Positions 16,679 through 29,438 of a stretch of 36,067 nt of DNA are shown here, piece by piece. Every line of letters starts with the position of its first letter. Within the stretch, counting starts at the first letter, position 1. Source of the stretch: a virus; IMG/VR virus record IMGVR_UViG_3300047157_000109, positions 1 through 36,067 of that record, one strand, 5' to 3'. The notes beneath the pieces were generated by a model. The model made no database searches. It had not been told where the DNA came from and worked only from the letters and a program-made list of their open reading frames with translations. A program made the translations under genes and the position numbers.

Positions 16679-16683
16679 CGAAG

Positions 16684-16705
16684 AAGGCCCCGAAGGGCCT
16701 TTTTT
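16684..16705. terminator. Strong intrinsic terminator between convergent operons
   Basis: AAGGCCC at 16684-16690 pairs with GGGCCTT at 16695-16701 around CGAA, and six T follow (16700-16705). It ends the rightward late transcript 5 bases after the holin stop. The stop of the leftward diphosphohydrolase gene lies in the T-run, so the same stem may also help end the leftward transcript, though with a poorer U-tract. Confidence 0.88.
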
Positions 16706-24084: not shown

Positions 24085-24163
24085 GATTTCCTCCTAATTG
24101 TGGTAATGTGCCGCAAAACAGACCAAAACCCTATTGACAGGGCATTGACAAGGCCTCACTATG

Positions 24164-24191
24164 TTTATAGACACTCTAAGGGATCGCCAAA
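24164..24191 (-). promoter_or_regulatory. Weak leftward promoter candidate before the replication genes
   Basis: On the minus strand TTTGGC (24191-24186), 16 bases, TATAAA (24169-24164). The -35 match is poor, but the site lies in the only gap before the primase-helicase block. The same gap has two TTGACA words 11 bases apart on the plus strand (24134, 24145) and CTAT-GTTT-ATAG dyad symmetry, so a regulator site is also possible. Confidence 0.35.
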
Positions 24192-24245
24192 GTTTTTCAT
24201 TTGTTCTTCATGAGATGAATGACGCTGAATGAATACCACTTGGGG

Positions 24246-24260
24246 CTACCTTAGAGGTAG
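24246..24260. terminator. Hairpin after the early small-gene cluster
   Basis: CTACCT at 24246-24251 pairs with AGGTAG at 24255-24260 around three bases. It sits just after the stop of the 79-residue gene. Neither strand has a clear T-run after it, so it may be an mRNA-end or processing hairpin rather than a true terminator. Confidence 0.4.
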
Positions 24261-24265
24261 TCACC

Positions 24266-25349: not shown

Positions 25350-25808
25350 TCACCTCCATGTCATAGTGAGGCCACGGGTCGCCCACTCGGCGGCCTTGTT
25401 GGCGTAATAAACTTGGTACGCTTCCACAGCGTCGGAGCGCTTGCATTCGTCGGGCATGCACTGCGGCGGGTCTGTGAAGCCTAGGTCGTCGATGTTGCGG
25501 GGCGGCTGGGCCAGCGCCTCGGCCTTCTCGGCTATGGTCTTGTGAACCTTGCCGTAGCGGCGCGTGTATTCGTCTCCAAGGGCCATCATGTGGTCATAGG
25601 CCCACAGGTAGTGGTCGAGCGATAAACGCACCCACACGGCGCTAGGGTGGTTCTTATGGGTGGGCTTGTAAGCCGGTGACTCGCCGTCAAGCTCGTGATG
25701 TGCCGTGGAGAGTAACTGCGCTGTCTCGAGTATCATTTTGACCACGTGACGGTCACATTGCGCGTCAGCGGCTAAGATCGGGTTACGGTTAAGGTAAAAG
25801 ATGTTCAT
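25350..25808 (-). CDS. Conserved phage protein, possibly DenV-like DNA repair fold
   Basis: A 152-residue protein with AGGAG eight bases before ATG. The signature reads FYLNRNPILAADAQCDRHVV followed by KMILETAQLLS, then THKNHPSAVWVR and EYTRRYGKVHK, and finally QCMPDECKR and AYQVYYANKA. This family is widespread in phages and usually left hypothetical. Its helical order and conserved His/Lys/Tyr recall pyrimidine-dimer glycosylases (DenV), but the likeness is from memory and weak. It follows the structured region 25857-25977 directly, so its expression may be controlled by that RNA. Confidence 0.75.
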   Translation of the reverse strand: MNIFYLNRNPILAADAQCDRHVVKMILETAQLLSTAHHELDGESPAYKPTHKNHPSAVWVRLSLDHYLWAYDHMMALGDEYTRRYGKVHKTIAEKAEALAQPPRNIDDLGFTDPPQCMPDECKRSDAVEAYQVYYANKAAEWATRGLTMTWR

Positions 25809-25856
25809 GTGTAAATCTCCTGTTGTTACTTATAAGGTGCCGACTAGGTTTCTGGA

Positions 25857-25977
25857 CTGCCGTGATGTTCGGCGAGCCCTCCACTAATGATTCACTCTTA
25901 GAAAGTGTCATCCCTTACCCTTTCGGGCAGTAGCTAGGCGGCGAAAGCTGGTTACCTTAGCGCCCCGTAGGACGCTA
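25857..25977 (-). ncRNA. Candidate structured RNA or RNA control element
   Basis: In the minus-strand reading there are four hairpins: TAGCGTCC/GGGCGCTA (25977-25958) with a TACG loop; CCC/GGG with a GAAA loop (25927-25918); CACTT/GAGTG (25907-25893); and GCCG/CGGC (25873-25859). Two pairs that are C-A mismatches on the plus strand (25963/25972 and 25897/25903) become G-U on the minus strand, and both tetraloops are the stable kinds only in that orientation. No open frame fills the 180 bases. It lies in the early operon, ahead of the 152-residue gene. I could not match it to a known riboswitch. Confidence 0.5.
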
Positions 25978-25988
25978 TCGAAACCCTC

Positions 25989-26132
25989 CTAAATGTGCGG
26001 ATAGTCCCAATCCTGAGCCTCTCCGTGTCTCTCGTATGCGCAATGATCGCACAGATACTCCTCCGCTAAGTCGTCGTAAAACATATCGGCGGCGTCGTAT
26101 GCCACCTCGCCGCACTCCTCACATATACCCAT
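25989..26132 (-). CDS. Small zinc-ribbon protein (47 residues)
   Basis: ATG at 26132 lies three bases after the previous stop, with AGGAG eleven bases upstream. The product has CEEC at 4-7 and CDHC at about 28-31, a four-cysteine zinc ribbon, with acidic residues between. Tiny zinc-ribbon proteins of early phage operons often bind host RNA polymerase or other host proteins, but nothing here shows the partner. The structured RNA candidate follows 11 bases after its stop. Confidence 0.75.
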   Translation of the reverse strand: MGICEECGEVAYDAADMFYDDLAEEYLCDHCAYERHGEAQDWDYPHI

Positions 26133-27880: not shown

Positions 27881-27905
27881 GATGTGCCCTCCTTAGTTGC
27901 TTATT

Positions 27906-27928
27906 AAAAGACCCTATCGCTAGGGCCC
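27906..27928 (-). terminator. Terminator-like attenuator hairpin just before the first early gene
   Basis: Minus-strand CCCTA (27925-27921), loop GCGA, TAGGG (27916-27912). The stem extends through G-U pairs (plus-strand 27911/27926 and 27909/27928) and a G-C pair (27910/27927), and is followed by TCTTTTAAT. It lies about 25 bases before the protease start codon, so transcription could stop here unless prevented. Confidence 0.55.
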
Positions 27929-27939
27929 TTAAATAAGCC

Positions 27940-28042
27940 CTGAGAGCGTTTCTCTGCGGCTTGGATTGTCTGCCCTTGCCGGTGAGTGCCGTGGATTGTC
28001 TGCCCGTTGGCGCGCTCTCAGTGCTTGGTGTTGCTCTCAGTG
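27940..28042 (-). repeat. Direct repeats and competing complementary arms in the early leader
   Basis: TGGATTGTCTGCCC occurs at 27962-27975 and 27992-28005 (30-base period). GCTCTCAGTG occurs at 28014-28023 and 28033-28042. CTGAGAGC at 27940-27947 is complementary to GCTCTCAG of both latter copies, so the leader RNA can form either of two exclusive 8-bp stems. Confidence 0.6.
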
Positions 28043-28329
28043 TTCCGCGTGGCTTCGCTTCATCGCCTACCCGATGGGCTAGGCCGCGCTTTCCGCTGAG
28101 GTGTTGCTATATGACCCGTCGCGCTCCGGTCCGCTAGGCTTGAGGCTGAGCATGTGATCCGGTAGGGGATCGCCGCGCCTCGCTAGCAGGGGTTAACTAG
28201 GGGTTTGGTTAGATTTTCAGTGAAGGCCCTCTTCGTGGACTCCGACGCTAACCCGTCGCTTTCTTTACCGAGCCGCCCAATGTGGGGGTGACTCTGCGGG
28301 ATTGTGGCTCCCCGTCGCCGTTGAAATGA

Positions 28330-28357
28330 ATATTAGCAAACTGAGGAGTCCGCGCAA
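28330..28357 (-). promoter_or_regulatory. Leftward early promoter candidate flanked by an inverted repeat
   Basis: On the minus strand TTGCGC (28357-28352), 16 bases, TAATAT (28335-28330). The expected start is near 28323. TTGAAAT at 28321-28327 and ATTTCAA at 28364-28370 form an inverted repeat that encloses it, with TTAG/CTAA inside. It is the only plausible promoter found for the early operon. Confidence 0.5.
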
Positions 28358-28383
28358 CCCCTAATTTCAATTTATTTTCACTT

Positions 28384-28398
28384 TGTGGATTATTTACA
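28384..28398. other. Two overlapping near-DnaA boxes in AT-rich DNA, possible origin element
   Basis: TGTGGATTA (28384-28392) reverse-complements to TAATCCACA, one base from TTATCCACA. TTATTTACA (28390-28398) differs at two bases. They lie in the AT-rich stretch 28320-28430. Function as an origin is inferred. Confidence 0.3.
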
Positions 28399-28401
28399 TT
28401 C

Positions 28402-28429
28402 TTGAGCTGAAAACTCACGCGCCTATAAA
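28402..28429 (+). promoter_or_regulatory. Rightward promoter-like site
   Basis: TTGAGC (28402-28407), 16 bases, TATAAA (28424-28429). It is back-to-back with the leftward candidate at 28330-28357. No convincing gene follows for 1 kb, so if active it would make a long leader or an untranslated RNA, possibly a replication primer. Confidence 0.35.
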
Positions 28430-28710
28430 TAGAACGCGCACGCGGTTAGCACGTATGCGATGCCCTGTCTAGGTATTATTACACAAAATGCGAATAAAGT
28501 GTTCCGAGTGCTAGGGCATAGCTTAGGGCTAACGTCGCTCACAGGGCGTTTTAGAGGCCTTCTCGAGCGTGTTGGGGTTGGCATGGTTCGTGCTAGGCCC
28601 TCAACTGCCTCATTACTGGTAATAGTTCACAGGGTTGTAGTGACTGGCACGGCGTGTGCATGGCGTTGTAGCTGACCGCATGGCTCGCCGCTCGCTTATC
28701 CCAGCGTGTC

Positions 28711-28751
28711 CCCTCGTGGTCAGGCCCTCGTGGTCAGGCCCTACGGTCAGG
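28711..28751. repeat. Three tandem 13-14-bp repeats
   Basis: CCCTCGTGGTCAGG at 28711-28724 and 28725-28738, then CCCTACGGTCAGG at 28739-28751. GC-rich and non-coding. A second pair, GCACCACCACGG, lies at 28836-28847 and 28849-28860. Confidence 0.75.
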
Positions 28752-29085
28752 CCATGGGTGAGAGGGCCCCCCATAAAAGCCCCAGCGGCTCCCACACCGC
28801 CTCCCTCCTGTCACCTTTCTGGATCCCCCACGGTCGCACCACCACGGTGCACCACCACGGACAAGCACAAAGCATGCCAAGTCGGGCCAAACAGGCATAC
28901 CCCGCGTACCTATGCGGTTTGGCGGCCGAAAAGCACCCCCACGGGGGCCTGTTGGGCTGGCGAGTATAGTGTGGTAGGCTCTTCCGTTTGCAAAGAGTAA
29001 CTTTTGAGGTCTGTTTGGGCACTTATTGGTACATTTTAGGCACCCCGTGGGTAGCCAGAAAGACCAATACATTCATAGACTTAGC

Positions 29086-29221
29086 CATATAGGCCCACAG
29101 AGCATAAATAGAGCCCCAACCAGACCACTGTGTGACTATATGGGAACTTCACGAACAGGCATATATAGACTAGAATGTGACCTTTGTGTGAGCTTACCTG
29201 CCGTCTAGTTGGCTATATGGG
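29086..29221. repeat. Recurring CTATATGG words upstream of the late promoters
   Basis: GCCATATAGG (inverted) begins near 29089, CTATATGGGAACTT near 29137 and CTATATGGGTACTT near 29213. A related CTATATGG lies at 33886-33893 just after the 33844 promoter. Spacing and orientation vary. They may be binding sites for a phage regulator. Confidence 0.45.
29148..29176 (+). promoter_or_regulatory. Rightward promoter candidate, upstream member
   Basis: TTCACG (29148-29153), 17 bases, TAGAAT (29171-29176). The -10 box matches five of six bases and the -35 four of six. It lies 81 bases upstream of a better promoter and shares its CTATATGGG neighbour. Confidence 0.42.
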
Positions 29222-29228
29222 TACTTGA

Positions 29229-29257
29229 TTGACAAAACCCCTTAAAAATGCTACAAT
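29229..29257 (+). promoter_or_regulatory. Strong sigma-70-like late promoter before the terminase genes
   Basis: TTGACA (29229-29234), 17 bases, TACAAT (29252-29257): a full -35 and a five-of-six -10 at ideal spacing. The expected start is near 29264, giving a 175-base leader before the small terminase. It probably drives packaging and head genes with host polymerase. Confidence 0.8.
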
Positions 29258-29438
29258 AAAACCGTATTATAGGTACTATATAGGACAAGACGGATTAGGC
29301 TTAAGCGACCTCTTCCTCCACACCTTTTCAGAGTGACTCAAGCGATCTCATCTACGGACATCATCTATCGACTCCCTCTGAGAAGACAACACCATCCAAG
29401 TTAAATCCCGCAGGGGACTATAGAGTAAGGAGTTTGAG

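Follow-up and report, generated by a model that had tools for sequence, protein, structure and literature searches.

A cloverleaf-folding element between early genes of a 36-kb virus record, probably an optional structured RNA module

Phage messengers and the gap under study

Among the intercistronic elements of phage messengers are the early RNase III sites of T7 and the CUUCGG hairpins of T4. The structured RNAs of uncultured lytic phages have been little catalogued. In phage T4, the RNase E sites of gene 32 are known as intercistronic processing sites in the messenger (PMC3014915).

The window, the whole stretch of 36,067 nucleotides that was analysed, is a 36-kb virus record whose early genes, including those for an A-family DNA polymerase and a primase-helicase, lie on the minus strand. 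On this strand, a gap of 180 bases (25809-25988) separates a 47-codon open frame from a 152-codon gene, which matches PHROG 624 (E 2e-52) and falls slightly under the cut-off of Pfam Pyr_excise. The gap contains a UACG hairpin and a separate cloverleaf of about 104 nt, and scanning of its minus strand found no promoter- or terminator-like site. Three near relatives (L002, L003, and L004) were collected from IMG/VR through the 152-codon gene and the upstream 110-codon gene. The features are listed in Table 1.

Table 1. Positions of the cloverleaf, its parts, and the neighboring features in the window
Feature	Position	Strand	Remarks
47-codon open frame (MGICEECGEVAYDAADMF...)	25989..26132	-	Just upstream of the gap; conserved in L002-L004 (ORF listing and alignment)
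Hairpin 1, UAGCGUCC-UACG-GGGCGCUA, 8 bp	25958..25977	-	Separate from the cloverleaf
Whole cloverleaf, outer stem and three arms	25839..25942	-	z -2.76, 0/200 shuffles; same fold in L002; core-shuffle test
P1 5' strand, GCCGcCUAG (L002: GGCGgCUAG)	25934..25942	-	Closes the cloverleaf with the P1 3' strand
P2 hairpin, UGCCC-GAAA-GGGUA	25916..25929	-	Stem invariant; loop GCAA in L002; invariant AGGG next to it
P3 hairpin, 11 bp with two-base bulge	25886..25912	-	Sequence unrelated to P3 of L002
P4 hairpin, 9 bp	25854..25879	-	Sequence unrelated to P4 of L002
3' joint CCAGAAAC between P4 and P1	25848..25855	-	CCAGA also in L002
P1 3' strand, CUAGuCGGC (L002: CUAGuCGCC)	25839..25847	-	Outside the interval first proposed
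152-codon gene	25350..25808	-	Downstream of the gap; similar to pyrimidine-dimer glycosylases

The structure in this messenger gap is more stable than expected by chance on the transcribed strand, as judged from folding z-scores and the core-shuffle test described below. For positions 25837-25944, the minus strand gave a z-score of -2.76, a stability that no shuffle out of 200 reached, and the plus strand gave +0.58. The counterpart in L002 gave -2.72 (0/200) and its opposite strand -0.35. The cloverleaf is the centroid of the window copy; in the MFE structure, which is more stable by 0.3 kcal/mol, a further short helix forms around P2 and P3. In the predicted fold, the first two C of the 3' joint fall in P4. 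A pseudoknot is possible between AGAAA of the 3' joint and UUUCU of the P3 loop; the complementarity, though present in both copies, is weak, with p values of 0.03 and 0.20 from shuffles. Part of P3 was also considered as a hammerhead core, and this assignment was rejected because the resemblance is not common to L002.

An earlier sequence-only reading had proposed a minus-strand structured RNA not yet described, with four hairpins in 120 bases free of genes. The four hairpins are present, including the C-UACG-G loop of hairpin 1 and the GAAA loop of P2, and no gene of annotated size occupies the interval, but a 40-codon minus-strand frame crosses part of it. Minus-strand G-U pairs, reported there for two stems, occur in the UACG hairpin, in the GAAA hairpin, and in both large arms, and the restriction of the fold excess to the minus strand agrees with the suggested selection on a minus-strand RNA. 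An undescribed RNA is likewise supported by the folding scores, by the recurrence of this cloverleaf in an independent relative, and by the Rfam result given below. The interval itself had to be redrawn, as 25857-25977 cuts off the closing strand of P1 and one cloverleaf takes in three of the hairpins as its arms; that interval gave a z-score of -1.70 on the minus strand, where 12 of 200 shuffles did equally well, and +0.88 on the plus strand.

The 40-codon frame (25789-25911) runs across P3 and P4 and into the beginning of the 152-codon gene, and it is preceded by a GGG-rich possible ribosome site. A conserved open frame through the region had been named as something to look for; this one was rejected as conserved coding sequence, since the matching frame in L002 stops after eight codons.

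Frame, arms, and absence of the element in related phages

The elements of L002 and L003 are identical to each other. The L002 counterpart lies at the same place and, when folded independently, adopts the same four-helix plan; the genes on either side share about 93-95% DNA identity with those of the window (counted by eye). L004 shows a clean absence of the cloverleaf, with CCAGCTTATT directly joined to AGTAACAAC, and the junction falls at the position of the CTTATT repeat that flanks the L002 element. The element can go missing without disturbing the neighboring genes.

Between the window and L002, the outer stem, P2, and the joints are nearly identical (5' side CUAGC(U)ACUGCCCGNAAGGGUAAGGG, 3' side CCAGANNCCUAGUCGNC). 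The core of 52-56 nt between these two sides of the frame is unrelated in sequence and length, and in both copies it forms two hairpins of 9-11 bp. The same architecture is found again in a relative whose arms differ in sequence. When the core was shuffled, 0.9% of the shuffles for the window and 0.8% for L002 regained a cloverleaf in which each of the two arms had 9 bp or more. Simpler energy measures gave a mixed outcome, with p values of 0.19 (window) and 0.015 (L002) for the core alone and of 0.03 (window) and 0.13 (L002) for the full element with its core shuffled. The different cores in the same frame possibly arose by recombination with unseen relatives, by independent insertion of related modules, or by fast diversification.

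The sequence-only reading had suggested a search for compensatory changes; the collections searched contain only two distinct sequences. P1 carries a single two-sided compensatory change, from C-G in the window to G-C in L002, and a C-U mismatch of the window is a G-U pair in L002; 27 of the 28 cells of P1 and P2 are paired. Covariation was not above that of shuffles (263/500), as expected for an alignment of two rows.

L002 and L003 also carry a 30-codon hydrophobic frame (MAITNLIKNYPIIEALVSALALFGVLCIIN; L002:2895-2987) between the element and the 152-codon gene, which is absent from the window and from L004. In the distant relatives L127 and L129, other small genes occupy this place and the 152-codon gene is missing.

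Hairpin 1 keeps its position in L002, L003, and L004, with G-U/G-C exchanges that preserve the stem. As L004 has this hairpin but no cloverleaf, the UACG hairpin is a separate piece. It has the extra-stable C-UNCG-G form, as in phage intercistronic hairpins. It also matches exactly an intergenic hairpin in about 187 Klebsiella-type Drulisvirus records (E 0.6), and a drulisvirus-type locus (L147) holds a second variant with bases changed yet still pairing. These records were not accepted as independent support, since they amount to one match within a redundant group, and the identity may reflect convergence of C-UACG-G hairpins.

The search for further members covered several collections. Rfam 15 returned no family at the gathering threshold in the window and none in the element up to E 10 (window copy and L002), and ARAGORN predicted no tRNA or tmRNA gene in the window. 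Scans of viral and genome collections with a P2/joint core pattern, whose matches were either filtered by the presence of a fitting outer stem or examined by folding, found the pattern together with the full element only in L002, L003, and the window. The remaining matches were judged to be chance, one of them lying inside 16S rRNA-like sequence (by eye). A scan of viral contigs with a pattern of the 3' part found the fold only at known loci, and a covariance model of P1 and P2 run over about 1.2 Mb of related loci found only the window and L002/L126. A topology scan of 1.38 Mb gave no further convincing cloverleaf; a candidate in L168 was rejected as coding sequence by eye. Phage records held no similar DNA except short matches. 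As no further member was found, the element may be young, rare, or too divergent for the searches used.

Several other sites were seen along the way. A second non-coding gap of about 180 nt (24085-24265, minus) precedes the small gene upstream of the primase; it is kept in L126, L134, and L135 and more loosely in L127 and L129, with the motifs CTGTCAA(G/T)AGG, ATAAACA, and ATCCCTTAG, and may represent either a site in the DNA, for example an origin, or an RNA. At 16680-16705, a strong hairpin with a U-tract lies between convergent gene blocks and is probably a bidirectional terminator. A region of about 1.5 kb (27881-29438), which separates the first early gene on the minus strand from the late genes on the plus strand, has no frames other than overlapping, doubtful ones and includes a hairpin, AAGGGCCCTAGCGATAGGGTCTTT, at 27907-27930. 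Six other phages (L005, L006, L007, L009, L010, and L013) have leaders of 116-141 nt upstream of their homolog of the 152-codon gene, with many CCTAAG/CTAAGG-type repeats and, in some, strong folds (z about -5.3 in L013).

Possible roles of the element

The presence of the 152-codon gene without the element in L004, the gene lying between the two in L002, the short leaders (less than 40 nt in front of the gene at 50 of the 69 loci with homologs), and the missing promoter- and terminator-like sites together point to a messenger module or an excised RNA and not to a riboswitch. As the best explanation, we tentatively favor an optional structured intercistronic RNA that acts in cis on the early transcript as a module for processing, stability, or protein anchoring. 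Such a module would comprise the small stable UACG hairpin and the 104-nt cloverleaf, both in an untranslated gap of a polycistronic early transcript, with P1, P2, and the two joints as a conserved frame and P3 and P4 as exchangeable arms. It may provide a compact barrier, or a processing or anchoring point, for ribonucleases or a bound protein. Placed after the 47-codon gene and ahead of the genes that follow, it would shift the stability and the relative yield of messenger segments.

A role as barrier or anchor is suggested by the arms, which keep their shape and not their sequence, and by the ribosome site of the next gene, which is free and lies outside the cloverleaf. The minus-strand fold excess of both copies, the four-helix plan common to the independent folds and regained by about 1% of the shuffled cores, the compensatory pair with the nearly complete pairing of P1 and P2, and the position between same-strand genes are all consistent with the cis-acting module. 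However, the element is known from two distinct sequences with covariation no better than shuffles, and the invariant P2 and joint hint at a specific recognition that would be superfluous for a plain barrier.

Ranked second, and possible though unlikely, is a free stable phage RNA that would be excised from the early transcript and act in trans, its frame serving as a scaffold and its variable arms binding different host targets or a host protein. A compact closed cloverleaf with a constant frame and changed arms would suit such an RNA, as would the lack of a tie to a particular downstream start codon and the dispensability of the element in L004. However, the gap has no promoter- or terminator-like site of its own on the minus strand, and homologs elsewhere were found neither in the viral and genome scans nor in the related loci.

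The clean presence and absence between L002 and L004, the CTTATT repeat on both sides of the L002 element, and conserved ends around a different inside could also be read as a small mobile or cassette-like DNA element. Its ends would be the outer stem, the fold would represent terminal inverted repeats, and the two copies would be different members of one family inserted at the same spot. We consider this rather unlikely, since other copies were found neither in the window nor in the related loci nor by the viral and genome pattern scans, the flanking repeat is inexact in the window and present as such in L002 only, P3 and P4 are well formed on the transcribed strand only, and loss is equally explained by slippage between the CTTATT repeats.

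Less probable again is a modular phage RNA of a new kind, whose fixed frame of outer stem, GNAA hairpin, and two conserved joints would carry arms swapped between near-identical phages, for example in tracking host targets or defences, either as a free RNA or as a protein decoy.

The sequence-only reading had considered riboswitch-like control of the 152-codon gene. A cis-regulatory leader of this kind, whether a riboswitch or a translational operator, would fit the location of the element, which in the window immediately precedes that gene, and the complementarity of the P3 loop and the 3' joint in both copies. We regard it as improbable: besides the comparisons with L002, L004, and the leaderless homologs, the cloverleaf does not sequester the gene's ribosome site, no terminator-like site follows the element, and the pseudoknot complementarity is weak.

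A non-functional intergenic remnant of chance stability would agree with two known sequences, a third relative (L004) without the element, and a wider family that the scans did not find, but it is the least probable reading, as the same cloverleaf with different arms occurs in two genomes and is about 1% likely in each with shuffled cores.

Comparison with known systems

The element is probably a genuine RNA module, although an optional one. Its two sequences provide a lead and not an established family. A frame kept while the arms are replaced between phages about 93-95% identical nearby would offer a handle on the exchange of RNA modules, and the element could help tell whether the messenger or the host is the target of such RNAs.

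In its outer stem and three arms of similar order and size, the element resembles a tRNA, but its outer stem is 9 bp long and, in the window copy, contains a mismatch, and both a TUC loop and a CCA end are missing. Like curated Rfam RNAs such as riboswitches, ribozymes, and phage RNAs, it is compact and has a GNRA-capped hairpin; unlike them, it matches no family. MITE- and REP-type elements are short palindromic mobile elements, and the paired ends, the flanking short repeat, and the presence and absence of the element recall them; however, it occurs as a single copy, and neither related copies nor a transposase were found in the loci and scans used.

The likeness to phage intercistronic hairpins and processing sites lies in a structured RNA placed between genes of a phage transcript. 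With no more than 11 bp, the stems fall short of what a classical RNase III site would have. Unlike those intercistronic sites, the element lacks a long RNase III stem and is predicted to form a four-helix cloverleaf in which the frame is conserved and the arms are exchanged.
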